Positions 46,459 through 64,000 of a stretch of 64,000 nt of DNA are shown here, piece after piece. Origin of the DNA: Planktothricoides sp. SR001 (GTDB taxonomy: Bacteria > Cyanobacteriota > Cyanobacteriia > Cyanobacteriales > Laspinemataceae); assembly GCF_001276715.1 (NCBI RefSeq), contig NZ_LIUQ01000009.1, forward strand, positions 32,728-96,727. The letters run 5' to 3'. Each line of letters begins with the position of its first letter. Positions within the stretch are counted from its first letter, which is position 1. Both the position numbers and the translations under genes were made by a program. The notes under the pieces were generated by a model. It saw only the letters and a list, made by a program, of their open reading frames with translations. It was not told the DNA's origin and did not search any database.

Positions 46459-47178
46459 ATGAGCAGTCAACTAGCCGCAAAGCTTCGGGAAGGAACAAAA
46501 AAGCCTCATAGCACAGCCGAAAACACGGGTTTTGTGCTGTGTTTAATCAAAGGGGTTATCGAACCCATCTCCTTGAGAAAATTTCTTAGCTACTTATATT
46601 TTGTCTACAGTGCATTAGAACAAAATCTAGAAAAATATCGGCAACATCCGGTGGTTGGGCCGATGTATTTTCCCGAACTGAATCGCACCGCAAATTTACA
46701 AGAAGATTTAGCCTATTTTTATGGCGAAAATTGGCGCGATCAAATCACTACCTCAGAACATTGCGATGTTTTTGTAGCGCGGATTCATGCCGTATCAGTC
46801 ACTCATCCAGAATTATTAGTGGCTCATGCTTACACTCGCTATTTAGGCGATTTATCCGGCGGTCAAGCATTTCGGAAAATTTTTCGCAATGCTTTAAAAT
46901 TACCGGCAGACAAAGGCACAAGATTTTATGAATTTGATGCCATTTCTGATATCCCAGCCTTTAAAGATCGCTATCGCGATGCTTTAAATTATTTGGTAGT
47001 CAGCGATGAAATTGCCGATAAAATTGTCGCTGAAGCAAATGAATCATTTTATCTCAGTCGCAGTCTATTTAAAGGACTAGAAGTTGATTTAATTAAAGTC
47101 ATTGGCCAAGCAGAATACGATCGCATTGCCAGCCAAACCCACCCCGGAAGTACGGAAACCGTAGGGGCTAGATCGTAG
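46459..47178 (+). CDS. ho: Biliverdin-producing heme oxygenase
   Basis: 239 residues. Proximal His in R-E-G-T-K-K-P-H-S-T-A-E-N and the distal helix L-G-D-L-S-G-G-Q. It opens heme to biliverdin for bilin synthesis. Cyanobacteria have a constitutive HO1 and a low-oxygen HO2; its place directly ahead of hemN and bchE suggests the HO2 type. Confidence 0.93.
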   Translation: MSSQLAAKLREGTKKPHSTAENTGFVLCLIKGVIEPISLRKFLSYLYFVYSALEQNLEKYRQHPVVGPMYFPELNRTANLQEDLAYFYGENWRDQITTSEHCDVFVARIHAVSVTHPELLVAHAYTRYLGDLSGGQAFRKIFRNALKLPADKGTRFYEFDAISDIPAFKDRYRDALNYLVVSDEIADKIVAEANESFYLSRSLFKGLEVDLIKVIGQAEYDRIASQTHPGSTETVGARS

Positions 47179-47334
47179 CCTAAATCTGCCAAAACGGGCG
47201 ATCGACCGGGTTGCTAAATAAATCTTGTTTTGATCTCTTGTTCTAATTTCAGACATAAAAATAACCCGGGTTTTTAACCAATTTTTGTCCCACTCTTACT
47301 TGATTCCACTCTTAAAATTTCAGAAATAACGACT

Positions 47335-48720
47335 ATGAAATTATTAACCCAAGACGTAAAATTTGACCACGATTTGATTGTCAAGTACGATCGCACCAGC
47401 GCCCGTTATACCAGCTATCCCACTGCCCATGCCTTAAGCAGTGAATTTACCGAGACAGCTTTACACGACTGTATCGCCCGGAGTAATGAAAAAAAATCGC
47501 CCCTATCCCTTTATTTTCATATTCCTTTTTGTCAAAGTGCTTGCTATTTCTGTGGTTGTAATGTGATTGTCACCCAAACCCAGAAAGCTATTGAACCTTA
47601 TTTGAATTATTTATATCAAAATATTGCCAACGTTTCTGGGTTAATTGACAAAGACCGGAAAGTTTCTCAACTTCACTGGGGTGGGGGAACTCCGAATTAT
47701 TTAAGTCTGCATCAAGTGGAAGCCCTCTGGACTAAAATTAATCAACATTTTACTTTTGCAGACAATGCCGAAATTTCTATAGAAGTCAATCCCCGCTATG
47801 TCGATCGCAACTATATTTTTCTCTTACGGGAATTAGGCTTTAATCGGATTAGCTTTGGGATTCAAGATTTTAATCCCCAAGTTCAAGCGGCAGTGAACCG
47901 AGTTCAGCCAGAAGAATTGCTGTTTAACGTGATGAGTTGGATTCGGGAAGCGGGGTTTGAAAGTGCAAATGTGGACTTAATTTATGGGTTGCCTTTCCAA
48001 AGTCTGAGTACCTTTACCGAGACGATTGAAAAAACCATTAAACTCGATCCAGAACGGGTGGCGGTGTTTAATTTTGCCTATCTGCCCAGCATGAAACCTG
48101 TACAAAAAAATATTGCGGAAAAAGACTTGCCGCAAGCAGAGGAAAAACTGGCAATTTTACAAATGGCGATCGAAAAGTTAACCAGCAATGGTTATGTATT
48201 TATTGGCATGGATCACTTTGCCAAACCGAATAATGAGTTAGCGATCGCCCAACGGGAAGGGGAACTGCACCGCAACTTCCAAGGCTATACCACCTTACCT
48301 GGGGCCGACTTATTTGGCTTTGGCATTACTTCCATTAGTATGCTCGATGATGTTTACTTCCAAAATCATAAACGCCTGAAAGATTATTACCAAGCCATTG
48401 ATGCAAAACAACTGCCGGTAGAAAAAGCAGTATTTCTGGATTTTGATGATATGCTGCGTCGGGAAGTAATCATGGAACTGATGTGTCAGTTCAACTTATC
48501 CAAACGTCAGATAGAAGCCAAATATGATCTGAATTTTGAGCAATATTTTGCTTGGGAACAAGAGCATTTACACGCCCTAGAAAAAGATGGACTGGTACAG
48601 GTGGACGCGGAAAAAATCCAAGTTACCCCAGTGGGTCGGTTACTCATCCGCAATATTGCCACAATTTTTGATGCTCATAGCCGCCAAAATCAGGTAAGAA
48701 TACTTTCCCGATCTATTTAA
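47335..48720 (+). CDS. hemN: Oxygen-independent coproporphyrinogen III oxidase
   Basis: 461 residues. N-terminal Y-D-R-T-S-A-R-Y-T-S-Y-P-T-A, radical-SAM C-x3-C-x2-C (C-Q-S-A-C-Y-F-C-G-C), G-G-G-T-P. The fourth Cys and substrate motif are as in true HemN rather than HemW. It makes protoporphyrinogen without O2. 156 bases after the heme oxygenase on the same strand. Confidence 0.95.
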   Translation: MKLLTQDVKFDHDLIVKYDRTSARYTSYPTAHALSSEFTETALHDCIARSNEKKSPLSLYFHIPFCQSACYFCGCNVIVTQTQKAIEPYLNYLYQNIANVSGLIDKDRKVSQLHWGGGTPNYLSLHQVEALWTKINQHFTFADNAEISIEVNPRYVDRNYIFLLRELGFNRISFGIQDFNPQVQAAVNRVQPEELLFNVMSWIREAGFESANVDLIYGLPFQSLSTFTETIEKTIKLDPERVAVFNFAYLPSMKPVQKNIAEKDLPQAEEKLAILQMAIEKLTSNGYVFIGMDHFAKPNNELAIAQREGELHRNFQGYTTLPGADLFGFGITSISMLDDVYFQNHKRLKDYYQAIDAKQLPVEKAVFLDFDDMLRREVIMELMCQFNLSKRQIEAKYDLNFEQYFAWEQEHLHALEKDGLVQVDAEKIQVTPVGRLLIRNIATIFDAHSRQNQVRILSRSI

Positions 48721-48726
48721 TAAAGT

Positions 48727-48897
48727 AACCACAAAGCAACCACAAAGACACAAAAGACCATTAGCATAATTACGGAAAAAAACCACCAAAAACCCTGAAA
48801 AATGGGGCTTAGGGAGGGATGTAAAAAGCATAAATATTTTCTTCTGCGTTTGTGTCCTTTGTGTCCTTTGTGTCTTTGTGGTAAATCTGTTTATAAT
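48727..48897. repeat. ACCACAAAGACACAAAG inverted repeat
   Basis: ACCACAAAG..ACAAAGACACAAAAG (48727-48755) is matched by CTTTGTGTCTTTGTGGT-type sequence at 48855-48895. It is a hairpin-forming repeat in the hemN-bchE spacer; it could be copied in transcripts without stopping them. Confidence 0.75.
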
Positions 48898-48923
48898 CTG
48901 CTTATTTTTATCAGGAGAAAAAT

Positions 48924-50522
48924 ATGATGAAAATAATGATGGTTCAACCGAATTATCACTCTGGTGGGGCGGAAATTGCCGGAAATTGGCCGCCAAGTTG
49001 GGTGCCTTATGTGGGGGGCGCGTTGAAAACCGCAGGGTTTAAGAATATTCGCTTCGTAGACGCGATGACAAATAATATCTCTGACGATATTTTAAGGGAA
49101 ATTATTGAGAGAAATCAGCCGGATGTGGTGCTGGCAACGGCAATTACCCCGATGATTTATCAATCGCAGAAAACTCTGAAGATGGTGAAAGAAGTTTGCC
49201 CCCAAGCGAAGACGATTATGGGGGGAATTCACCCCACTTATATGTATGCAGAAGTTTTGACGGAATCCCCTTGGGTGGATTATATTATTCGGGGTGAAGG
49301 GGAAGAGATTACGGTGAATTTGATGCGGGCGATCGCTGCGGGAACGGATATGAGCGATCGCCACCAAATTAAAGGGATTGCATTTTTAGAAAATGGCCAA
49401 ATTTTCGCCACACCAGCCCACGATCCAATTGCCAATCTGGATACATTAACCCCGGATTGGAGTTTATTAGAATGGGATAAATATATTTATATTCCCTTAA
49501 ATGTGCGGGTAGCGGTGCCCAACTACGCTAGGGGTTGTCCGTTTACCTGCCGGTTCTGTTCTCAGTGGAAATTTTGGCGCAATTATCGCATCCGCACGCC
49601 AAAATTATTCGTGGATGAAATTGAAACCCTGGTGAAAGAACACAATGTAGGTTTCTTTATTTTAGCTGATGAAGAACCGACGATTAATCGGAAACAATTT
49701 ATCGCCTTATGTGAGGAATTAATCGATCGCAACTTGGGGGTTCACTGGGGAATTAATACTCGCGTCACCGATATTTTACGGGATGCAGAGTTACTGCCTC
49801 TCTATCGGAAAGCGGGATTAGTTCATGTGTCCCTGGGCACGGAAGCAGCCGCCCAATTAAACCTGAATGTGTTTCGCAAACAAACCACCATTGAAGATAA
49901 TCACCGGGCGGTGCAATTGCTGAAAGAAAATGGCATTGTGGCCGAAGCCCAATTTATTATGGGTTTAGAAAATGAAACCCCGGAAACCATTGAAGAAACC
50001 TATAATATGGCGCTGAAATGGAATCCAGATATGGTGAACTGGAATATATTTACTCCTTGGCCATTTTCTGAATTATTCCAAGAAATCGGCGATCGCGTCG
50101 AAGTGCGGGACTACTCTCAATATAACTTTGTCACCCCAATTATTAAACCCAACAACATGGAACGAGAAGAGGTACTCAAAGGGGTACTACATAACTATGC
50201 TCGTTTCTATATGCGGAAAACATTTGAGTATTGGTTAATCAAAGATAGCTTTAAGCGGAAATATATGTTGGGCTGCTTAAAAGCCTTTGCCAAAGCAACT
50301 TTAAATAAGCGCTTTTATAACCTTAACCGCGTCAAACAAAAAGGGCTACATACGGAAATTGATTTAGGGTTCGATCAATCCAAAATTTACACCAGAGAAG
50401 AAATCGCCAAACGGAAACAAGAACATCCCGAACTGGCCGCAGATATCAATTTTGCGGGCACCGCTTGCACCCAATTTGAGGACAATTCATCAAATTCTGA
50501 CTCCTCCGCTTGTTGTTTATAA
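48924..50522 (+). CDS. bchE: Anaerobic Mg-protoporphyrin IX monomethyl ester cyclase
   Basis: 532 residues. N-terminal cobalamin-binding-like domain (P-N-Y-H-S-G-G-A-E-I-A-G, F-V-D-A-M-T-N), radical SAM cysteines C-P-F-T-C-R-F-C-S-Q, and long C-terminal helical part. The sequence matches BchE of purple bacteria closely at the N-terminus. It forms the fifth ring of chlorophyll without O2, replacing AcsF/ChlA. AGGAGA lies five bases before ATG 48924; an immediate second ATG is possible. BchE is uncommon in cyanobacteria and many homologues are untested, so activity is inferred. Confidence 0.88.
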   Translation: MMKIMMVQPNYHSGGAEIAGNWPPSWVPYVGGALKTAGFKNIRFVDAMTNNISDDILREIIERNQPDVVLATAITPMIYQSQKTLKMVKEVCPQAKTIMGGIHPTYMYAEVLTESPWVDYIIRGEGEEITVNLMRAIAAGTDMSDRHQIKGIAFLENGQIFATPAHDPIANLDTLTPDWSLLEWDKYIYIPLNVRVAVPNYARGCPFTCRFCSQWKFWRNYRIRTPKLFVDEIETLVKEHNVGFFILADEEPTINRKQFIALCEELIDRNLGVHWGINTRVTDILRDAELLPLYRKAGLVHVSLGTEAAAQLNLNVFRKQTTIEDNHRAVQLLKENGIVAEAQFIMGLENETPETIEETYNMALKWNPDMVNWNIFTPWPFSELFQEIGDRVEVRDYSQYNFVTPIIKPNNMEREEVLKGVLHNYARFYMRKTFEYWLIKDSFKRKYMLGCLKAFAKATLNKRFYNLNRVKQKGLHTEIDLGFDQSKIYTREEIAKRKQEHPELAADINFAGTACTQFEDNSSNSDSSACCL

Positions 50523-50852: not shown

Positions 50853-51242
50853 TCATTTCCAGATTCGTTGAATTGAATAAGAATTAAATTTAGTATCGCC
50901 ACTCAACAGCAGCAGCGATCGGTTCATAGCTTGAGTGACTAAAATGCGATCGAATGGATCTCGATGACCGGGGATAACCGGCAAACTTGCGTAAGTTTGA
51001 GTATCTTCAACGGTTATGGGCAAAATTTCCGCATCGATCGTCACCACCTCCTGAAATAGCTCTTGAACTGGTCGATTAATTTCTAGTTTTCCCACGTTTA
51101 ATTTAATGGAAATTTCCCATAAACTAACGATACTGAAATACAAACCAGTCTTGGAATCGATGATTTGTCTGGCTTCATTAATGAGTCTGGGATCTCCTAG
51201 TAAATACCAGAGGAATACATGAGTATCTAAGAGAAATTTCAT
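50853..51242 (-). CDS. PIN-domain toxin (VapC-like)
   Basis: 129 residues. PIN acidic residues in L-L-D-T-H-V-F-L-W, W-E-I-S-I-K and D-P-F-D-R-I-L-V. These proteins cut RNA. Its ATG is one base after the antitoxin stop, so the two are translated together. Confidence 0.92.
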   Translation of the reverse strand: MKFLLDTHVFLWYLLGDPRLINEARQIIDSKTGLYFSIVSLWEISIKLNVGKLEINRPVQELFQEVVTIDAEILPITVEDTQTYASLPVIPGHRDPFDRILVTQAMNRSLLLLSGDTKFNSYSIQRIWK

Positions 51243-51243
51243 G

Positions 51244-51489
51244 CTACATATAGTCCTTTAAATCTTCCAGGGGTTCGTCAAAATCATCGGACATAATGAT
51301 TTGTCCAGCCCAACTCCCATAACCATGAGATTTTTCCAGGTCTTGTTGGTTCTCCTCTTTGCCGTTTGGTCGAGATGCTCCCGTCGAATTGACATATTTT
51401 TCTAACAAAAACTCGATATAGTGACCGACTTCGGTTTTGAGTGACTCTGGCAATGCCTCGTATTTTTCTAAAATTTTTGCTTGTGTCAT
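51244..51489 (-). CDS. DUF2281-type antitoxin
   Basis: 81 residues from ATG 51489, with AGGAG nine bases before it; a longer frame to 51525 is less likely. Motifs L-E-K-Y-E-A-L-P-E-S-L-K-T-E-V and A-G-Q-I-I-M-S-D-D-F-D-E-P-L-E-D match DUF2281 antitoxins paired with PIN toxins. The tail probably binds the toxin. Confidence 0.88.
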   Translation of the reverse strand: MTQAKILEKYEALPESLKTEVGHYIEFLLEKYVNSTGASRPNGKEENQQDLEKSHGYGSWAGQIIMSDDFDEPLEDLKDYM

Positions 51490-51525
51490 TGGTGTTTCTC
51501 CTAGCTGTTTTTCCAGTTTATTCAT

Positions 51526-52085
51526 TAGTATTAGGGACGATTTGGGGGCAATTACTACCCGATTAGACTAATTTTTACAGCGGTTTTCAGATTACTAAAC
51601 CACGATTGGGCGAAGCATTCCGGCAGTCAGGTTAATACTCTAAGCAATAATTTATCTGCCGGAATGCTTCGCCCCTACAGATATTTCTGGTTTACTCGCG
51701 GAGAAAATTGCTGTAAACCAATTAATTATATCACTCAGATATATTTGGTTGTTGGTGGTTGGGTGTTGGTGGTTGGTGGTTGGTGGTTGGTGGTTGGTGG
51801 TTGGTGGTTGGTGGTTGCTGGTTGCTGGTTAATGGTTGCTGGTTAGTTACTGATTACTTGTTGCTTGTCAATGACAAAGAACTAAAGACCATCAACCAAC
51901 AACCAAGAACCAAGAACAAAACCCATACACAGTAAAGCTTTCAGGAAATAAAAAAATTTTTTCAAAAAACATTTAACAACTAAACACTTATATAGTTATT
52001 TAAATATATAAACAGGCAAAACCTCAAATCAAATTTGATGATGAGGATGAGGATGTCGGGAAAAATACTAGCCATCATCAAAACT
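51526..52085. repeat. psbA upstream region with hairpin and GGTGGTT array
   Basis: A 19-bp inverted repeat (51608-51626 with 51656-51674) of the GGGGCGAAGCATTCC family, then a long array of the heptamer GGTGGTT (about 51748-51845), then AT-rich DNA (51940-52035) that probably carries the psbA promoter. No promoter is defined. Confidence 0.8.
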
Positions 52086-53168
52086 ATGACCACTACTTTT
52101 CAAGAACGCCAAAGTAACAGTCTTTGGGAACGCTTTTGTAGCTGGATTACCAGCACCGACAACCGTCTATATATTGGCTGGTTTGGTGTGTTGTTAATTC
52201 CCACAGCTTTAACCGCAGCAATTGTATTTATTCTGGCAATGGTTGCGGCTCCTCCGGTAGATTTGGATGGCATTCGTGAGCCTGTTTCCGGTTCTTTGCT
52301 GTATGGAAATAACATTATTACGGCAACTGTTGTTCCCTCTTCTGCGGCGATCGGGTTGCATTTATATCCAATCTGGCAAGCAGCTTCTTTGGATGAATGG
52401 CTTTACAATGGTGGCCCTTATCAACTGATTGTGTTGCACTTCTTAATCGCTATCTATGCTTACATGGGTCGCGAATGGGAATTAAGCTACCGTTTAGGAA
52501 TGCGTCCTTGGATTGCTGTTGCTTTTTCCGGTCCAGTGGCGGCAGCGACTGCGGTACTGTTGGTTTATCCGATTGGACAAGGCAGCTTTTCTGATGGTTT
52601 GATGTTAGGAATTTGTGGAACCTTCAACTTTATGATTGTGTTCCAAGCTGAACATAATATTCTGATGCATCCTTTCCATATGCTTGGTGTTATCGGGGTA
52701 TTTGGCGGCGCTTTATTCTCCGCAATGCACGGTTCTTTGGTGACTTCTAGCTTGATTCGTGAAACCAGTGAGGAAGAATCTCAAAATGCTGGTTACAAGT
52801 TTGGCCAAGAAAAAGAAACTTACAATATTGTTGCCGCTCACGGTTACTTTGGTCGCTTGATTTTCCAATATGCCAGCTTTAATAACGGTCGTTCTTTGCA
52901 CTTTTTACTCGCCGCTTGGCCTGTGATTGGTATCTGGTTCACTTCTCTCGGTGTTAGCACAATGGCCTTCAATTTGAATGGGTTTAATTTCAACCAATCT
53001 GTCTTAGATTCTGAAGGACGAGTGATTAATACTTGGGCTGATGTGATCAACCGGGCGAATTTGGGAATTGAAGTGATTCACGAGCGCAATGCTCACAACT
53101 TCCCCTTAGATTTAGCTGCTGGTGAATCTCAACCAGTTGCGATCGCGGCTCCCGCTATCCAAGGTTAA
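52086..53168 (+). CDS. psbA: Photosystem II D1 protein, D1'-like isoform
   Basis: 360 residues from ATG 52086, exactly the D1 length; in-frame upstream ATGs are rejected. All key residues are present: Tyr161, His198, His215, Ser264, His272, and Mn/Ca ligands Asp170, Glu189, His332, Glu333, His337, Asp342 and Ala344. Residue 130 is Glu. Ala80 and Leu158 match the D1' isoform made in low oxygen, but Thr286 stays Thr. Cys125 and Cys144 of common D1 are Ala. The mature end should be Ala344. It lies after an anaerobic tetrapyrrole cluster. Confidence 0.97.
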
Positions 53169-53226: not shown

Positions 53227-53266
53227 ACCGTCCCTTAGTTACTCCCAGCTAAGGGCGGTTTTTTTA
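53227..53266 (+). terminator. psbA terminator
   Basis: ACCGTCCCTTAG pairs with CTAAGGGCGGT with one mismatch, followed by a run of seven T. It is 58 bases after the psbA stop. Confidence 0.8.
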
Positions 53267-53369
53267 TTAGTTCATTTTTGGAGATAGATCGCGCATTTTG
53301 GGAAAAATAGGATATAAAAGGGATGAGGCATTCCCTATTGATGCCCTATTGATACCCAATTTCCCACCC

Positions 53370-55766
53370 ATGAGTGATTACGCTTACCAAGTCGGCGGTA
53401 GCTTGCCGGTAGATGCTCCCAGCTATGTGCAACGGCAGGCAGATGAAGACCTTTATCAAGGGTTAAAAGCGAGAGAGTTTTGCTATGTGCTGAATTCCCG
53501 ACAAATGGGTAAATCTTCGTTGCGGGTGCGGACGATGCAACGGTTACAAGCAGAGGGAATTCTTTGTGCTTCCATTGATTTAACAGCGATCGGCACTTCA
53601 GAAATTACCCCAGAAGAATGGTATGCGGGGGTAATTGACAGTATTGTGGGCAGCTTAGATTTATATAATGTGTTTGATTTAGATGAATGGTGGGAAACCC
53701 AGGGACGGTTGTCAAATTTACGCCGCTTCAGTAAATTTATTGAGCAAATTCTGATCCATCAAATTCAGCAACCTCTGGTGATTTTTATTGATGAAATTGA
53801 TAGTGTTTTGAGTTTAAATTTTAAAGTTGATGATTTTTTTGCGGCGATTCGGGCTTGCTATAATAAACGGGCAGAACAGCCCGCATTAGGGCGACTGACT
53901 TTCTGTATTTTGGGGGTGACTACTCCTTATGATTTAATTCAGGATAGAAATCGCAGTACCCCATTTAATATTGGCAGAGCGATCGCCCTCACCGGATTTC
54001 AGTTCCATGAGGCAGCACCTTTAGTCCAAGGATTACGGCAAAAATTTGCCCATTTTGCCCATGCGGATCTTATTTTAAAAGAGGTGTTGTCTTGGACGGG
54101 AGGACAGCCTTTTTTAACGCAAAAAGTTTGTCGAATGTTGGGCAATGCCACCCCGCCCACCACGGAGAAAAATCTGGCGGATTGGGTGGAAAAAATTATC
54201 CGTCAGCAGGTGATTTATAATTGGGAATCCCAGGATGAACCGGAACATTTACGCACTATTCGCGATCGCCTACTTTGGCGGGGCGATCGACAAGGGAAAA
54301 TCCTGCGACTCTATCAGCAAATATTACGCCAAGGGTCAATTAGAGCACAGCAAAAGCCCGAATATTTAGATTTGCAACTCACCGGCTTAGTGGTGAAACA
54401 CAATAGTAGATTAAAAATATATAACCGCATCTATGGTGAAGTTTTTAATCAAACTTGGTTATCATATGTTTTAAAAGAAACTTTTACGAAAAATCATCCC
54501 CTAAATCCGTTCAATGATGTGACAATTGACTACAGCAAACTCCGGGATTTTTTGGCGGCTAAACAGTGGCAAGCAGCGGATCAAGAAACCGCAGCAATTA
54601 TGCTGAAAATCGCTGGTAAAGAATCCGCCAGTCGGTTGACAGGTCAGGATATCCAAAAATTTCCTTGTGAGGAACTTGGCAGAATTAACCAATTGTGGTT
54701 GGATTTTAGTGATGGGCGGTTTGGCTTTACGGTACAAAAACAGATTTGGGAACAAGTGGGGGGATTGGTCAATTCAGATGATTCTGAAACCTACAGTCGT
54801 TTTGCCGATCGCGTTGGTTGGCGCAAAAATGGTTCTTGGTTGGACTATTCCCAACTGAGGTTTAATAGCAATTCTCACAGCACTTCTCCCCTGGGACATC
54901 TTCCTCGCGTTATGGTAGTTTTTTGGCCGACTGTTGCCGGTGATGAGACTTTCAAAGAAAGGGATTTTTTAGAGGCGATCGCGCAAGCGGAAAACTGGAC
55001 AGAAGAAGAAATTGGCGATTTATTTGAAGGATGTGTTTATCTATTTTCTCGGCTGAAGGATTGTAATTTAGAATCTAGTTCAGAGTTAGCAGAAAATCCG
55101 CGCCTATCTTCATCACCTTCCCTTGCCGATGCCCCCAAAGTAAAATCAAAAAATATTGTCGTTAATTCACAAAAAACAATGAATCGTGTTCCATTAATTT
55201 CTGCCCAAGATCGGAATTTAAACTCAAATTTTTTATATGAATCGATGATTCATAATTGTTGGCTGAGAATCTATCTAGGAGATATTACTGATTTAGTCGT
55301 TGATGTGATCGTCAGTTCTGATGACATATATCTGACAATGGGCGGAGGAGTATCGGCCAAAATCAGACGAGTGGGCGGCGATGAAATTAAAAAAGAAGCT
55401 CAACTATTAACTCCTTTATCTTTAGGTGATATTGCCATTACCACCGCTGGAAATTTGGCGGCAAAAAAAATATTTCATGCAGCGGTGCTTGATTGGCAGC
55501 CCCTACAAAAGCCAACGGAAGATCCGATCAAAAAATCAGTGGTAAATTGCCTGGATTGTGCGAATTATTTAAAACTTAAAACCATTGCTTTTCCTTTGTT
55601 GGGAACTGGTAAAGCCCGGTTTACTTCTCTGCAAGTTTTTGATATTATGGTAAATGAGATTATCGCCAAAATTGGCACCGACAATCAAAGTATTGAGGAA
55701 GTAGCGATCGTCATTTTTGGTGATATATCTCTCGCGGAATATTTAATTTCAACGCTAAAAAAATAG
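53370..55766 (+). CDS. AAA_35 ATPase fused to GUN4 and macro domains
   Basis: 798 residues from ATG 53370; a longer start at 53298 is less likely. Residues ~1-330: AAA_35 with Walker [10 protein letters not shown] and Walker B V-I-F-I-D-E-I-D. Residues ~385-510: GUN4 ([33 protein letters not shown]). Residues ~626-798: macro domain ([14 protein letters not shown] and [11 protein letters not shown], then L-L-G-T-G-K). GUN4 binds Mg-porphyrins or, in such fusions, senses unknown ligands; macro domains bind or cleave ADP-ribose. No membrane helix is seen. It is upstream of the TIR genes. I know of no characterised protein with this order. Confidence 0.85.
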
Positions 55767-57208: not shown

Positions 57209-60200
57209 ATGTCTGAATTGTACCATGCCTTTATTTCCTATGGCCGCGCCGATAGCAAAGAATTTGCCATCAAACTTTACAATTGCCTCACAAACCTTGG
57301 CTTTAATATCTGGTTTGACCAACATGATATCCCCTTGGCGGTAGATTTTCAAAATCAAATCGATGATGGCATTGCCAAAGCGGATAATTTTCTGTTTATT
57401 ATTTCCCCCCATGCGGTGAATTCCTCCTATTGCCAGAAAGAGATTAATCTGGCATTAAAATACCATAAGCGGATAATTCCCTTACTGCACGTGGAACAAA
57501 TTACCCAAGAAACTTGGCAAAGCAGAAATCCCCTGGGTACTGAAGCCGAATGGCAAGATTATCAAGCTAAATGGTTACATTCTAGCTTTGTCAATATGCC
57601 CCCAGAGATTGCAAAAATTAACTGGGTTTACTTTCGGGAAAATATTGATAGTTTTGATGAGTCTTTAGGCGGGTTAATCCAAGTCTTTGATACCCATATA
57701 AATTATGTTAGACAGCACACTAAGTTTTTGGCTGATGCTCTAAATTGGCAAGAAAATCACCAGCAAACTCGATATTTGTTGATTGGCGAACAAAGGCAAG
57801 CGGCAGAACAATGGTTAGACCGAAAATTCGTGGATGAACCTGCTCCTTGTCAACCCACTGATTTACAATGCGAATATATTTGTGAAAGCATCAAGAATGC
57901 GAATAACTTGATGACCCAAGTATTTATCGGGTATGCAGACTCAGACCGGGACATTATGGAACATCTGACTCGGACTTTGCGCCGAGAAAAAATTACGGTT
58001 TGGCAAAATACCAGAGATATTAAAACTGGTGCAGATTTTCAAGAAGAAATTAAGCGAGGGATTGTTGGGGCAGATAACTTAGTTTATCTAATTTCTCCAG
58101 ATTCTCTCGCTTCTCAATATTTTCACTCAGAAATTGAGTTGGCTTTGTCCTACCAAAAGCGGATTATTTGTTTAATGGTTCAGCCTATAGAAGTTAAAAC
58201 GATTCCTGAAACATTGCGATCGCTTCAATTTATCGAGTTAACCGATTGGCAAAATTATGAAATTTATCAGAAACAAAGCAATGAATTAATTAAACAACTC
58301 CGAGAAGAATCCGCTTATTATCAAGACCATAAACTTCTCCTGGCTAAAGCCTTAAAATGGCAAGAACAAAACCGCAACCCTAGCATTTTGTTGCGGGGAT
58401 ATAACTTACAGCATTTTCAGGCATGGCTGAAACTAGGAAAAACCCGCGATCGATATCAGCCAATTCCTTTACAAGGGGAATTTATTGAGGTCAGCAGTCA
58501 GTATCAGTTCAGTTATTTAGAAGTTTTCATCTCTTATTCTCGCACCGATTCCGACCTAGCTAGAAAAATTAATGATGCACTCCAATCTCAAGGAAAATTT
58601 ACCTGGTTTGACCAGGAAAGTATTGCCGCTGGGACAGATTTTCAGCAAGAAATCTATCGGGGCATTGAAAATTCTGATAACCTCTTATTTATTATTTCTC
58701 CTAGTTCGGTGAATTCCCCCTATTGTGCGGCGGAAGTGGAATATGCCCAAAAATTAAATAAGCGATTTGTCACTATATTATATCGTCCCGTTGACCCAGA
58801 AACTTTGCATCCCGTTTTGGCGAAAGTGCAGTGGATTGACTTTAATCAGCATGGGGGCGATTTTTATGCCAATTTTAGTGAGTTAGTCAGAACTTTAGAC
58901 ACGGATAGAGACCATCTAAGAAGTCATACGAAGTGGTCGCAACGAGCTTTGGAATGGCAGGAAAAAGGGAAAAGTGCCGATTTATTGTTGCGGGGCAGCG
59001 AGTTAAGTGTTGCTGAAGATTGGTTGCAGGAAAGTCAACAAGAACATAAGCAGCCTCCGGTGACGGATTTGCAACAGGAATATATTGCGAAAAGTCAAGC
59101 CGCGAGAGAAGCTGGGATTAAGCAAGAAAAGCAACGAGTTTTGATTTTAAGAACCCTACTTGGTGGAGTTAGCGTGGCATTGGTGGCGGCGATCGCCCTG
59201 GGGTTAAAGGCGAATAAATTGGCCACAGAAGCGACGATTAAAGCTGATGCAATTTTAGCCCGAAATTTGATTAGAGCAAATCCCCTAGAAGCTTTAATTT
59301 CCGCCATTGAAATCACCGGCAGAAGTGAAGCAAAATTAGGCCAAGTTTTGCCGATCGCTCAATCTAGTTTATCCGCCACCGTCCACGCAATTCGAGAACG
59401 CGATCGCCTCAAAGGACATACCGCTAATATTAATTCAGTGGTGATGACTCTAGACGGTAAAAAAATTGTTTCTGCCAGTGGAGATAAAACCATTAGAATC
59501 TGGGATAATTCGGGAGAAAAATTAGCGGTATTAACCGGCCATAAAAATTATATTTTCTCCGTGGCTATTACCCCAGACGATCAAAAAATTGTTTCCGGTA
59601 GTGGGGACAGTACGATTCGCGTCTGGGATATTATTTCCGGGAAACAATTAGCCGTTTTAAAAGGACATCATGGGAACATTTTAGCAGTAGCTATTACCCC
59701 AGATGGGCAAAACATTGTTTCCGCCAGTTGGGATAACACAATTAGAATTTGGGATATTAATTCAGGCCAGCAATTAGCCGTTTTAAATGGACATGAAAAT
59801 GGGGTGATTGCGGTGGCCATTACACCAGATGGGCAAAACATTGTTTCCGCCAGTTGGGATAACACAATTAGAATTTGGGATTTAGTTTCCGGATCTGAAT
59901 TAAAAGTATTAAAAGGCCATGATTCTGGAGTAATTTCTGTGGCGATTACCCCCGATGGGCAAAATATTGTTTCTGGGAGTTGGGATAATACAATTCGGGT
60001 CTGGAATATGGCCGGTGAACCATTAAAAGTTTTAAAAGGACATCTGGATCGAGTTTGGTCTGTGAAAATTACCCCCGATGGCCAAAAAATTGTCTCCGGT
60101 AGTGGGGATAAAACGATTAAAGTTTGGAGTTTATCCGGTGAAGAATTAGCGGAATATAAAGGACATGAGTCAGGGGTACTTTCCATAGGCATATCCCCCG

Positions 60201-62017
60201 ATGGCAAAACGATTATTTCTGCCAGTGATGACCGCACAATTCGTCTGTGGGATATGTCAGCCCAAGAACCGAAAATTCTAGGGATACATGACTCATATGT
60301 GATTTCCGTAGCCATTTCTCCAGACGGGCAAAAAATTGTTTCTGGTAGTGCGGATAAAACCATTCGACTTTGGGATATATCTCAGGATAAATTAACCGTA
60401 TTTAAAGGACATGAATTGACGATTAATTCAGTGGCTATTACCCCCGATGGCCAAAAAATTGTGTCCGGTAGTGATGACCAGACAATTCGACTTTGGGATA
60501 TGTCTGGTAAGCAATTAGCGGTGTTAAAAGGGCATCAGTCTGGGGTAATTTCTGTGGCTATTTCCCCGGACGGGAAACAAATTGTTTCTGGTAGTTCAGA
60601 CAATACTATTCGACTTTGGGATATCTCCGGTAAGGACTTAGCTGTATTTGAAGGACATGAGGGGGCGGTGGTTTCCGTGGCTATTTCTCCCGACGGGAAA
60701 CAAATTGTTTCTGGTAGTGATGATGGAACAGTTCGTTTGTGGAGTATTTCTGGGGAACAATTAGCCGTATTTACCGGCCATGAATCCGGGGTTTATTCCG
60801 TGGCTATTTCCCCAGACGGCAAAAGAATTGTTTCTGGTAGTTTAGACAACAAAATTCGCATTTGGAATTTAGCGGGTCAGCCCCTCGCTATATTAAAAGG
60901 CCATGAGAATTATGTGCGATTTGTGGCTATAACCCCCAATGGCCAAAATATTGTTTCCGCTAGTCAGGATAATACAATTAGAGTCTGGAATTTAGCCGGG
61001 GAAGAAGTAGGAATCTTACAAGGACATGAGGGCGGAGTTAATGCAGTGGCGATTACTTCAGATGGGCAGAATATTATTTCTGGCAGTGATGATAAAACGA
61101 TTCTTTTGTGGCGAGGTTCTTGGTCTGGTTGGTTAGCCACAGGATGCGATCGCTTACGGTTACATCCAGTATTCTTAGAAACCGCATTTAACCGCCCAAA
61201 TGTAGAATCAATCCGCTTGGATTTTTCCCAAAAATCAGAAACAGAAAATATCCCACTGGCAGCGGTAAAAACTTGTCAAGAACAGGTATGGAATAAACAG
61301 CAAACAGCCGATTTTTATGTGCAACAAGGTTTATTAATTGCCCGGTCAACGGGTGATTTTGCCTCCGCGAAAAAACAGTTTAAGCAAGCGCAACAGTTAG
61401 ACCCAGAATTTTATTCTGCTTTAGAATTTAACCCAGAAACAAAAGCCAAGCAAATCGTGGTGTTAATGTTGCTCCAAGATGCAGAAAACCGGGCACAACA
61501 GGCAGATTTACCCGGCGCGATCGCCAAATTTAACCGGGCGAAAAATATCGATCCGGCTTTACCATTTGACCCGGAAACAAAAGCCAAAGAAATCGTCGCG
61601 GCTACTTGGATTACTAAGGCCGCTGCATCGATTCGCCAAGGAGATTTAGAGTTAGCGTGGAAACATTATCAACAGGCGCGGGAATTAGACACTGAATTAG
61701 CAAAAGCCACTGTAGGGGATTTAAATACAATCTGTTGGTATGGCACTTTACAAGGTTATGTTACTCAGGCGATCGCTGCTTGCGAAATTGCCGTAAAACG
61801 CGAACCCAATCATGGGGGAATGCGGGATAGTCGCGGGGTGGCGCGAGTGTTGACGGGCAATTATGCCGGGGCAATGTCTGATTTTGAGGCATTTATTAAC
61901 TGGAGTGATAATGACGTAGAAAAAAATCAACGTCAAGGCTGGGTAGATGCGTTACGTCAGGGAAAAAACCCGTTAACGGAGGACGTGATAAAAGAGTTAT
62001 TATTAGAATCCCACTAA
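57209..62017 (+). CDS. Triple-TIR, 14-WD40-repeat, TPR-like protein
   Basis: 1602 residues. Three TIR domains begin at ~1, ~233 and ~436 (F-I-S-Y-G-R-A-D, F-I-G-Y-A-D-S-D, F-I-S-Y-S-R-T-D). Each keeps the helix Glu used by TIR NADases (S-Y-C-Q-K-E-I, Q-Y-F-H-S-E-I, P-Y-C-A-A-E-V). Each is followed by an A-L-x-W-Q-E and L-L-R-G type module. A hydrophobic helix at ~642-664, then 14 WD40 repeats (~734-1300), enough for two seven-bladed propellers, and a TPR-like tail (~1330-1602). TIR domains split NAD or act as adaptors. No NTPase domain is seen. Substrate and partner are unknown. Confidence 0.9.
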   Translation: MSELYHAFISYGRADSKEFAIKLYNCLTNLGFNIWFDQHDIPLAVDFQNQIDDGIAKADNFLFIISPHAVNSSYCQKEINLALKYHKRIIPLLHVEQITQETWQSRNPLGTEAEWQDYQAKWLHSSFVNMPPEIAKINWVYFRENIDSFDESLGGLIQVFDTHINYVRQHTKFLADALNWQENHQQTRYLLIGEQRQAAEQWLDRKFVDEPAPCQPTDLQCEYICESIKNANNLMTQVFIGYADSDRDIMEHLTRTLRREKITVWQNTRDIKTGADFQEEIKRGIVGADNLVYLISPDSLASQYFHSEIELALSYQKRIICLMVQPIEVKTIPETLRSLQFIELTDWQNYEIYQKQSNELIKQLREESAYYQDHKLLLAKALKWQEQNRNPSILLRGYNLQHFQAWLKLGKTRDRYQPIPLQGEFIEVSSQYQFSYLEVFISYSRTDSDLARKINDALQSQGKFTWFDQESIAAGTDFQQEIYRGIENSDNLLFIISPSSVNSPYCAAEVEYAQKLNKRFVTILYRPVDPETLHPVLAKVQWIDFNQHGGDFYANFSELVRTLDTDRDHLRSHTKWSQRALEWQEKGKSADLLLRGSELSVAEDWLQESQQEHKQPPVTDLQQEYIAKSQAAREAGIKQEKQRVLILRTLLGGVSVALVAAIALGLKANKLATEATIKADAILARNLIRANPLEALISAIEITGRSEAKLGQVLPIAQSSLSATVHAIRERDRLKGHTANINSVVMTLDGKKIVSASGDKTIRIWDNSGEKLAVLTGHKNYIFSVAITPDDQKIVSGSGDSTIRVWDIISGKQLAVLKGHHGNILAVAITPDGQNIVSASWDNTIRIWDINSGQQLAVLNGHENGVIAVAITPDGQNIVSASWDNTIRIWDLVSGSELKVLKGHDSGVISVAITPDGQNIVSGSWDNTIRVWNMAGEPLKVLKGHLDRVWSVKITPDGQKIVSGSGDKTIKVWSLSGEELAEYKGHESGVLSIGISPDGKTIISASDDRTIRLWDMSAQEPKILGIHDSYVISVAISPDGQKIVSGSADKTIRLWDISQDKLTVFKGHELTINSVAITPDGQKIVSGSDDQTIRLWDMSGKQLAVLKGHQSGVISVAISPDGKQIVSGSSDNTIRLWDISGKDLAVFEGHEGAVVSVAISPDGKQIVSGSDDGTVRLWSISGEQLAVFTGHESGVYSVAISPDGKRIVSGSLDNKIRIWNLAGQPLAILKGHENYVRFVAITPNGQNIVSASQDNTIRVWNLAGEEVGILQGHEGGVNAVAITSDGQNIISGSDDKTILLWRGSWSGWLATGCDRLRLHPVFLETAFNRPNVESIRLDFSQKSETENIPLAAVKTCQEQVWNKQQTADFYVQQGLLIARSTGDFASAKKQFKQAQQLDPEFYSALEFNPETKAKQIVVLMLLQDAENRAQQADLPGAIAKFNRAKNIDPALPFDPETKAKEIVAATWITKAAASIRQGDLELAWKHYQQARELDTELAKATVGDLNTICWYGTLQGYVTQAIAACEIAVKREPNHGGMRDSRGVARVLTGNYAGAMSDFEAFINWSDNDVEKNQRQGWVDALRQGKNPLTEDVIKELLLESH

Positions 62018-62076
62018 CCAATACCAATAAGCAACAATTTTCAGAAATTTAGGGGCTACATCGGATGACAATTAGG

Positions 62077-62613
62077 TTATCGAATACAGAAAAAATTTGT
62101 AAAGCGATCGTTTTGACAGACTTTTGCTGTTTTCTCTTCATCTGTTCTGTCAGAGTTGTTTTGGTTATTATTTTGCCTATTGGGTGCTAACCGGGAAAAG
62201 GGCTGGGTAGGTAGGGGCATTGAATTCCTCCCAGACTGAGACCCGGAAGTTGAGGTAGTCGTCGTGCCGGAGAGCGAGCCTGGGGTGGGGGTTGCGGGGG
62301 GCGGCTGACTAGGCAAAACGCTTGGGGAGGGCGTGGGTGCGGAACCCGGAAAAATACTCGGTGTGGGCGTGGGCGTGGGTGTGGGCGTCGGTGTGGGTGT
62401 GGGCGTGGAGGTTTCCACTGGCGTACCACCCAGGTCAAAGCTAAGGGGTGCAGTAGGTACTACGGGGGCTGGAGAAACTGGGGAATTTTGGGCTTGCGCG
62501 GGGGCTGCCGGAACCACTACAGTGGCGATCGCGCTAACCATGCCCGCAGTACCGACCGCGATCGCACTGTTTATAGGTGTTTTAAAATTAGAAAATCGCT
62601 GTTTTTCTTTCAT
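62077..62613 (-). CDS. Secreted Pro/Thr-rich low-complexity protein
   Basis: 178 residues with a signal peptide ending near A-Q-A-Q, a (T-P)n stretch of about nine units from a TGTGGGCG-type repeat, then P/S-rich and N-rich segments and two Cys near the end. Probably an exported wall or linker protein. It is opposite in strand to its neighbours. No domain is recognised. Confidence 0.6.
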   Translation of the reverse strand: MKEKQRFSNFKTPINSAIAVGTAGMVSAIATVVVPAAPAQAQNSPVSPAPVVPTAPLSFDLGGTPVETSTPTPTPTPTPTPTPTPSIFPGSAPTPSPSVLPSQPPPATPTPGSLSGTTTTSTSGSQSGRNSMPLPTQPFSRLAPNRQNNNQNNSDRTDEEKTAKVCQNDRFTNFFCIR

Positions 62614-62783
62614 TGATAAACTCTTATTAAACTATCAGAGGAAGCGATACAACGGTATCGCCTTCTTGGTAAAATACCAAATTTGCTTAAAAAAAACCAG
62701 GAGAATTTACCAAAAAGACATAAAAGACATAAAGGGGATTGATTATAATCTCTATAAAGAACTCCGATTTCTTGAAAAAACTG

Positions 62784-62820
62784 GCAGAAACCCGGTTTCT
62801 TCAAGAAACCGGGTTTCTGC
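62784..62820. repeat. 18-bp GCAGAAACCCGGTTTCTT hairpin
   Basis: GCAGAAACCCGGTTTCTT (62784-62801) and its exact complement (62803-62820) with a one-base loop, 22 bases before a TIR gene. Confidence 0.8.
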
Positions 62821-62842
62821 TCCTACCAATCATTAAAAACTT

Positions 62843-64000
62843 ATGGCTGAATTTTACGATGCCTTTATCTCCTACGGACGCGCCGATAGCCAAGAATTTG
62901 CCATCAAACTTTACAATTGCCTCACCAACGCTGGCTTTAATATCTGGTTTGACCAACATGATATCCCCTTGGCGGTAGATTTCCAAAATCAAATCGATGA
63001 TGGCATTGCCAAAGCGGATAATTTTCTGTTTATCATTTCCCCTCATTCGGTGAATTCCCCCTATTGCCAGAAAGAGATTAATCTGGCATTAAAATACCAT
63101 AAGCGGATCATTCCCTTATTGCACGTAGAACAAATTACCCAAGAAATTTGGCAACGCAGAAATCCCCAGGGTACTGAAGCCGAATGGCAAGATTATCAAG
63201 CTAAAGGGTTACATTCTAGTTTCACAAATATCCCCCCAGAAATTGCCAAGATTAACTGGGTTTACTTTAGAGAAAATATTGATAATATTAACGCAGCATT
63301 GGCGGGATTAATCGACTTATTTTATAAGCATCAAGATTATGTCAGACAACATACGGAGTTATTGGCGAAAGCCCTGGAGTGGGCAGAAAATAAAAAGCCT
63401 AATCGCTATTTATTAGTTGCCGAAGAAAGGCAAAAGGCAGAAGATTGGTTAGAGATTAGATTTAAAGGTGAACAAGCCCCCTGTCAGCCAACGGATTTAC
63501 ATTGTGAGTTTATTTGTGAAAGCATCAAGGATGCCAATAATTTTCTGACTCAGGTGTTTATCCGATATGCGGAAGAAGACCGGGGGACGATGGAAAAGTT
63601 AACTAGGACGTTGCAGCGAGAAAAAATTACTATTTGGACTGAGAGAAGCGATATCAGAAAAAGAATGAGTTTCCAGGAAAAACTGAATCGCGGTATTCTC
63701 GTATCTGACAACTTTGTTTATCTCGTTTCTGCGGATTCTCTTCAATCTGATTATTGCCAAAAAGAGATTAATTTAGCGTTGTCGTATCACAAGCGAGTGA
63801 TTTGTTTTATGGTGCCATCCCCAGAAATGGAGGCGCTGCCTGAATTTAGTTATGAACACCAAGCAAATGAGCTAATTAAACAAATTAGAGACGATGATAA
63901 ATATTATGAATACCATAAAATTTTGTTGGTGCAATCTCTGAAATGGCAAGAACAAAATCGCCACCCTAGTATTTTATTTCGAGGATATAAATTACAGAAT
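62843..64000 (+). CDS. Second multi-TIR protein, runs off the right edge
   Basis: From ATG 62843 the frame is open for 386 codons to the window end with no stop. The first ~130 residues are close to TIR1 of the neighbouring gene (A-F-I-S-Y-G-R-A-D-S-Q-E-F; Glu in S-P-Y-C-Q-K-E-I). A second TIR starts at ~231 (V-F-I-R-Y-A-E-E-D) with Glu in D-Y-C-Q-K-E-I, followed by the W-Q-E-Q-N-R-H module. It is a paralog of the triple-TIR gene; the C-terminal part is unknown. Confidence 0.88.
   Translation, partial: MAEFYDAFISYGRADSQEFAIKLYNCLTNAGFNIWFDQHDIPLAVDFQNQIDDGIAKADNFLFIISPHSVNSPYCQKEINLALKYHKRIIPLLHVEQITQEIWQRRNPQGTEAEWQDYQAKGLHSSFTNIPPEIAKINWVYFRENIDNINAALAGLIDLFYKHQDYVRQHTELLAKALEWAENKKPNRYLLVAEERQKAEDWLEIRFKGEQAPCQPTDLHCEFICESIKDANNFLTQVFIRYAEEDRGTMEKLTRTLQREKITIWTERSDIRKRMSFQEKLNRGILVSDNFVYLVSADSLQSDYCQKEINLALSYHKRVICFMVPSPEMEALPEFSYEHQANELIKQIRDDDKYYEYHKILLVQSLKWQEQNRHPSILFRGYKLQN

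Follow-up and report, generated by a model that had tools for sequence, protein, structure and literature searches.

A single gene of the cyanobacterium Planktothricoides sp. SR001 encodes an ATPase domain, a GUN4 domain and a macro domain in one polypeptide. This raises the question whether such a protein connects pigment metabolism with ADP-ribose chemistry, as suggested by the original prediction of a switch that links a tetrapyrrole or similar ligand to ADP-ribose, or whether it serves a different kind of signalling. The gene was analysed within a window, which here means the whole stretch of 64,000 nucleotides to which all coordinates refer.

Domain order and the AAA_35 ATPase

The gene is located at 53370-55766 on the forward strand and consists of one unbroken reading frame of 798 amino acids with an ATG start codon at 53370 and a stop codon at 55764-55766. 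A longer alternative frame with a TTG start begins at 53298 but is not needed, because other T2-type AAA_35 proteins (see below) begin just ahead of the same YQVGGSLP motif. From the N- to the C-terminus, Pfam profiles match AAA_35 at residues 10-360 (108 bits, cut-off 27, E 5.3e-31), GUN4 at residues 384-514 (131 bits, cut-off 29.2, E 4.8e-38) and Macro at residues 654-759 (72 bits, cut-off 22, E 5e-20). All matches are far above the curated cut-offs, and the predicted presence and order of the three domains are thus borne out. In the sister strain G037, a protein of identical architecture is encoded with 92.7% amino acid identity and a dN/dS of 0.38, which indicates a maintained protein; an orthologue with the same domains under constraint also rules out an assembly or frame artefact. 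The host genome (7.07 Mb) contains eight GUN4 and twelve AAA_35 matches, while its only macro match is the one in this protein.

The ATPase domain (53397-54449, forward strand) is STAND-like, and its motifs can be read directly from the sequence. Walker A (NSRQMGKSS, residues 42-50, 53493-53519) is shared with other T2 proteins, and both it and the Walker B region, which includes VIFIDEID (53772-53801), are intact. These are followed by GGQP (54099-54110), which we take to be the counterpart of the GxP motif in STAND/ORC-type ATPases (cf. Leipe et al. 2004).

In the cyanobacterial family of the host, two types of AAA_35 (Pfam PF14516) proteins can be distinguished. T1 proteins score above about 390 bits in Pfam when complete and carry an N-terminal TIR or HTH domain or a C-terminal GGDEF domain. 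T2 proteins score about 100 bits and have a variable tail consisting of WD40, CHASE2, CHAT, NACHT, GUN4 or macro domains. With its AAA_35 match, both Walker motifs and GGQP, the protein has all features of T2, and it shares the N-terminus, the start, the motifs and the exchangeable tail of the T2 partners in cyanobacterial T1-T2 pairs. A T1 gene lies at most 1.5 kb upstream in 17 of the 28 T2 loci of the family and nearby upstream in both relatives that combine AAA_35 with the same macro variant. In contrast, no T1 gene adjoins the gene in the window, where the AAA_35 match is the only one on the contig, and none is present in the corresponding locus of the sister strain (L063).

A tail of GUN4 plus macro on AAA_35 has been seen in the host species only. 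In another genus (L252), a TIR-AAA_35 gene is followed by an AAA_35-GUN4 gene without macro domain, and a further locus (L285) encodes AAA_35 with GUN4 repeats. Judged from these AAA_35-GUN4 types, the macro domain resembles a module that was added. The arrangement of T1 followed by T2 with exchangeable tails recurs in cyanobacteria (L252, L256-L265, L017, L018, L065, L067). The T1-T2 pairing seems to be a separate signalling or defence system that has so far not been described, and a literature search for AAA_35 returned nothing relevant.

The SSDD macro domain as a candidate receptor

The macro domain comprises residues 617-798 (55218-55763, forward strand). Its AlphaFold2 model has a mean pLDDT of 90.9, and the best PDB matches found with Foldseek, macroH2A1.1, AF1521, OiMacroD and TTHA0132, are all macro domains, so that the fold itself is predicted with confidence. 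It has this fold in common with TTHA0132-like, MacroD and macroH2A macro domains (target-length TM-scores reach 0.89; 35% sequence identity to 2dx6). Unlike these, it carries a changed ligand motif and belongs to a subfamily that is nearly always fused to other domains. The motif VNAAN...GGGVD/A reads VSSDD...GGGVS, with VSSDD (residues 648-652, 55311-55325) at the VNAAN site and GVS (residues 660-662, 55347-55355) at the GVD/GVA site. In the alignment, Asn30 and Asp40 of OiMacroD correspond to Asp652 and Ser662, respectively, and both MacroD-type active-site positions are thus replaced, while the GTG loop is largely kept. As the N30A and D40A variants of OiMacroD have lowered activity that is still present (PMC5413906), the domain is termed active-site changed and not inactive.

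Two observations bear on the ligand. The adenine-contact residue Asp638 is a serine in the sister strain, so that ADP-ribose binding there would be weaker, and the SSDD motif brings a pair of acidic residues close to the diphosphate/ribose site, so that the ligand may be a compound other than ADP-ribose. The original prediction had pointed to the reading or erasing of ADP-ribose signals by macro domains; the macro domain is real, but it is not a standard one, and the link to NAD or ADP-ribose chemistry is plausible only.

The SSDD variant occurs in about a dozen of the 293 genomes searched in the order of the host. The window macro as a single query retrieved no relatives in a wider genome scan. 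With an alignment as query, the SSDD variant was also found among 84,980 species genomes in Bacteroidota, Nocardiopsis, Planctomycetaceae, Leptolyngbya, Nostoc and a Heimdallarchaeota bin, and it thus extends over cyanobacteria, Bacteroidota, Actinomycetota, Planctomycetota and one archaeal bin; as several carriers are metagenome bins, placements that depend on a single taxon are at some risk. The pattern V-S-S-D-D-x4-M-x2-G-x-S is invariant in ten sequences with 31-38% identity to the first, and this invariance across phyla argues against decay. When 80 macro domains were placed in a maximum-likelihood tree, a single branch with 100/100 support set the 20 SSDD rows and five derived variants apart from the rest, and the window macro, which has the full signature, is placed in this clade. 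The score gap to ordinary macro domains is wide. SSDD macros reside in open frames of at least 300 amino acids in 18 of 20 cases compared to 4 of 143 for ordinary macros (Fisher p ~3e-18, which is optimistic as rows are related; the truncation of several loci at contig or locus ends only shortens frames). In random draws of about 400 genomes from each of the phyla of a Bacteroidaceae bin (L100) and a Nocardiopsis bin (L135), no member beyond the seed was found by score, and the family is therefore rare outside cyanobacteria. Plasmid and phage searches returned ordinary-looking macros or nothing. Proteins of about 820 amino acids (L147-L149), in which the SSDD motif has changed to VNYxD, also branch within the SSDD clade.

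In the open-access literature, which leaves most subscription papers outside, no description was found of the AAA_35-GUN4-macro order, of the SSDD macro group or of GUN4 and macro in one protein; the only two papers that name both domains appear to treat them separately. The SSDD variant is apparently previously undescribed.

According to Pfam, SSDD macros are fused to TIR (L100, L135), caspase (L088), Ser/Thr kinase (L074, L116, L027), CHAT (L072, L032), AAA_35-WD40 (L067) and GUN4 domains (L070). The two TIR fusions (L100:1453-2541 and L135:1327-2616) are possible self-sensing NADases. Since the SSDD macro accompanies outputs as different as caspase, CHAT, kinase, TIR and ATPase, it is most simply regarded as an input or regulatory domain. 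A precedent is ThsA of the TM-macro Thoeris systems, in which the macro domain is the nucleotide-binding part and receptor for TIR products (PMC11204291). In both cases the macro domain is a likely receptor for TIR-made signals of the ADP-ribose type, and TIR domains are nearby or, in relatives, fused. In contrast to ThsA, the window protein has the SSDD motif and appears to carry an ATPase and GUN4 in the place of TM helices; its N-terminus is AAA_35, and two genes separate it from the TIR-WD40 gene downstream.

The best reading, which we consider to have an even chance of being right, is that of an orphan STAND-like ATPase for signalling or defence under the control of a nucleotide-reading, non-hydrolytic SSDD macro. 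As an orphan T2 member of the cyanobacterial STAND-like AAA_35 family with exchangeable C-terminal modules (WD40, CHAT, CHASE2, NACHT, GUN4, macro), the protein would bind via its macro domain an NAD-derived nucleotide, i.e. ADP-ribose or a TIR-type product, that arises from stress or phage attack, without hydrolyzing it. Binding would be relayed to the ATPase and shift its nucleotide or oligomeric state, with the paralogue-type GUN4 domain (see below) as an additional module for binding or protein docking. The partner that carries the output would probably be either a T1 AAA_35 protein from another locus or the nearby TIR-WD40 proteins. Against this reading stand the lack of a T1 gene beside the gene, the serine at position 638 in the sister strain, the acids of the SSDD motif near the ligand site, the residual activity of the OiMacroD variants, which leaves room for hydrolysis, and the genomic context outside cyanobacteria, which is not clearly defensive: most of the examined SSDD loci there have no obvious defence neighbours. 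The wider proposal that the SSDD macro is an undescribed NAD-signal receptor module of bacteria and archaea, which is attached to many outputs (TIR, caspase, CHAT, kinase, AAA_35, vWA-MoxR systems) and drives a STAND-like ATPase in the window protein, is more tentative. If SSDD macros are receptors, their signature would allow the spotting of NAD-signal sensors across many unrelated effectors.

Alternatively, the SSDD macro might itself be the output enzyme: controlled by the ATPase and GUN4, it would strip ADP-ribose off proteins or degrade an ADP-ribose signal, using a rearranged active site that has two aspartates and a serine instead of Asn/Asp. A strictly conserved acidic motif would suit a catalytic as well as a binding site, and the largely preserved GTG loop and the partial activity of the OiMacroD mutants at both positions are compatible with catalysis. 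However, both MacroD active-site positions are changed, and the fusion partners TIR, caspase, kinase and CHAT are already output enzymes, which fits better with an input or regulatory role. This explanation is regarded as unlikely.

The GUN4 domain and the adjacent pigment genes

The GUN4 domain (54519-54911, forward strand) was aligned to Gun4 proteins of known structure (1y6i, 1z3x) and to the Gun4 orthologue of the host (L001), which is encoded separately. Pfam and the alignments to 1z3x and 1y6i agree on a GUN4 fold. At the positions of Synechocystis Gun4, Phe196 is kept, Trp192 is replaced by Tyr, Asn211 by Met and Arg214 by Phe; the latter was placed by ungapped extension after GHLP, where L001 reads LSNQLRG. 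Thus, RVMVVF (residues 513-518, 54906-54923) takes the place of the LxNxLR bilin motif. Full porphyrin binding by Gun4 requires Phe196 and Arg214 (PMC8967248), and bilin binding requires Asn211 of LxNxLR, a motif that is absent from cyanobacterial GUN4 paralogues (PMC10156173). Because the positions of Asn211 and Arg214 are replaced, the domain is assigned to the paralogue type; tetrapyrrole binding may still occur, but the main argument for it is gone. In the other GUN4 fusions of the host genome, too, the motif is missing after GHLP. In comparison to the Mg-chelatase cofactor Gun4, the domain shares the fold and a high Pfam score but is part of a multidomain protein in a host with its own orthologue.

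The PADLOC profile PD-T4-6 also matches the GUN4 domain (54519-54911, 1e-38). This was rejected as evidence for defence, as only the GUN4 part of the profile is covered, and the profile may cause mistaken defence calls for cyanobacterial GUN4 proteins.

Upstream, haem oxygenase, hemN and bchE (oxygen-independent cyclase) are encoded at 46459-50522, followed by a VapBC-like toxin-antitoxin pair (50853-51525) and psbA (52080-53168); the gene begins at a distance of about 200 bp from psbA and 3 kb from bchE. The sister locus L063 has further VapBC-like copies in the corresponding position, and a G/T-rich short tandem repeat (ggttggt) lies upstream of psbA at 51740-51830. The psbA product deviates by eye from standard D1 at several sites (e.g. 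LLVYP, DGLMLG), as do low-oxygen D1' forms. In G037 and in G184, which belongs to the same genus, the conservation of the pigment genes is 89-100%. G184 has the haem oxygenase-hemN-bchE cluster without the AAA_35-GUN4-macro gene after bchE, psbA is absent at the corresponding place in G037, and a hairpin with a T run resembling an intrinsic terminator (53232-53262, forward strand) separates psbA from the gene. The linkage to the low-oxygen pigment genes is not stable, and a common operon with psbA and bchE was rejected on these grounds.

These results bear on the proposal that the GUN4 domain responds to a tetrapyrrole and ties ADP-ribose signalling to the state of the pigments, in concert with the neighboring low-oxygen genes haem oxygenase, hemN, bchE and psbA. 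The intact fold with Phe196, the proximity of psbA and bchE and the fact that tetrapyrrole sensing has also been proposed for GUN4 fusions (PMC7159879) speak in its favor. However, Met and Phe occupy the positions of Asn211 and Arg214, published paralogues lack the bilin motif, psbA is missing here in G037, the pigment cluster of G184 stands without the gene, and a terminator-like hairpin follows psbA, so that this explanation is quite improbable. Of the originally predicted switch, the tetrapyrrole half is not supported, while the NAD/ADP-ribose half stays plausible. The tempting reading as a pigment control gene is corrected by the GUN4 residues and the locus comparison, and the protein bears more resemblance to an exchangeable stress or immune sensor than to a regulator of chlorophyll.

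GUN4 and macro domains also occur together in other proteins. Fusions of GUN4 to signalling domains are already known in cyanobacteria, and GUN4 fusions and macro-bearing proteins of cyanobacterial conflict systems have been described in outline (PMC7159879). In a Microcoleus sp. EPA2 bin (L070), an SSDD macro precedes GUN4, i.e. in reversed order, and the gene lies directly downstream of genes for CHAT-iSTAND, MoxR-like AAA and vWA_CoxE proteins; this operon is an iSTAND ternary conflict system of the published kind (PMC7159879) and speaks for the preferred reading. Another protein (L040) has two GUN4 domains and a macro of the ordinary clade after a kinase domain, the latter judged by eye. 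Tree position and domain order suggest that GUN4 and macro were probably joined on at least three occasions. With the iSTAND MoxR-vWA ternary systems (Kaur et al. 2020, PMC7159879), the window protein shares a regulated NTPase combined with effector or sensor modules such as GUN4, TIR, CHAT and macro, but AAA_35 takes the place of iSTAND, and neither a MoxR nor a vWA gene was found beside it; the identified neighbors are psbA, a gene for a small protein, a GDSL hydrolase gene and the TIR-WD40 gene.

Divergence between strains and the TIR-WD40 neighbors

Between the host (G000) and G037, the gene differs in 5.0% of its nucleotides, compared to 0-0.7% in six neighbors. The linker between GUN4 and macro (residues 515-616, 54912-55217, forward strand), which has low pLDDT in the full-length model, is the most divergent part (11.5% of bases; 83% amino acid identity), whereas the macro domain differs in 2.2%. 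The dS is 0.10, and dN/dS is 0.33-0.43 in every domain. As dS is raised too, positive selection was rejected as the cause, and the pattern fits the replacement of an allele by recombination under purifying selection and not a loss of constraint. Allele replacement with purifying selection is common for accessory or conflict genes. That the protein is a decaying relic, i.e. an orphan T2 protein drifting after loss of its T1 partner, is very improbable: the missing T1 neighbor, the fast divergence and broken AAA_35 and GUN4 copies elsewhere in the host genome would be in line with decay, but the frame is open in two strains, every domain is under constraint, the high dS reflects allele replacement, and the ATPase and SSDD motifs are intact.

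Under the preferred reading of a nucleotide-sensing ATPase, a source of the signal might be encoded close by. Downstream of the gene, a small secreted-type protein and a GDSL hydrolase are followed by a TIR-WD40 protein of 1602 amino acids with three TIR domains and WD40 repeats (57209-62017, forward strand; Pfam), which is a possible source of an NAD-derived signal. The region 57209-64000 appears to contain two long genes of this TIR-WD40 type in tandem. The second of these runs beyond the window; the two copies share about 60% identity in G037 (L064).
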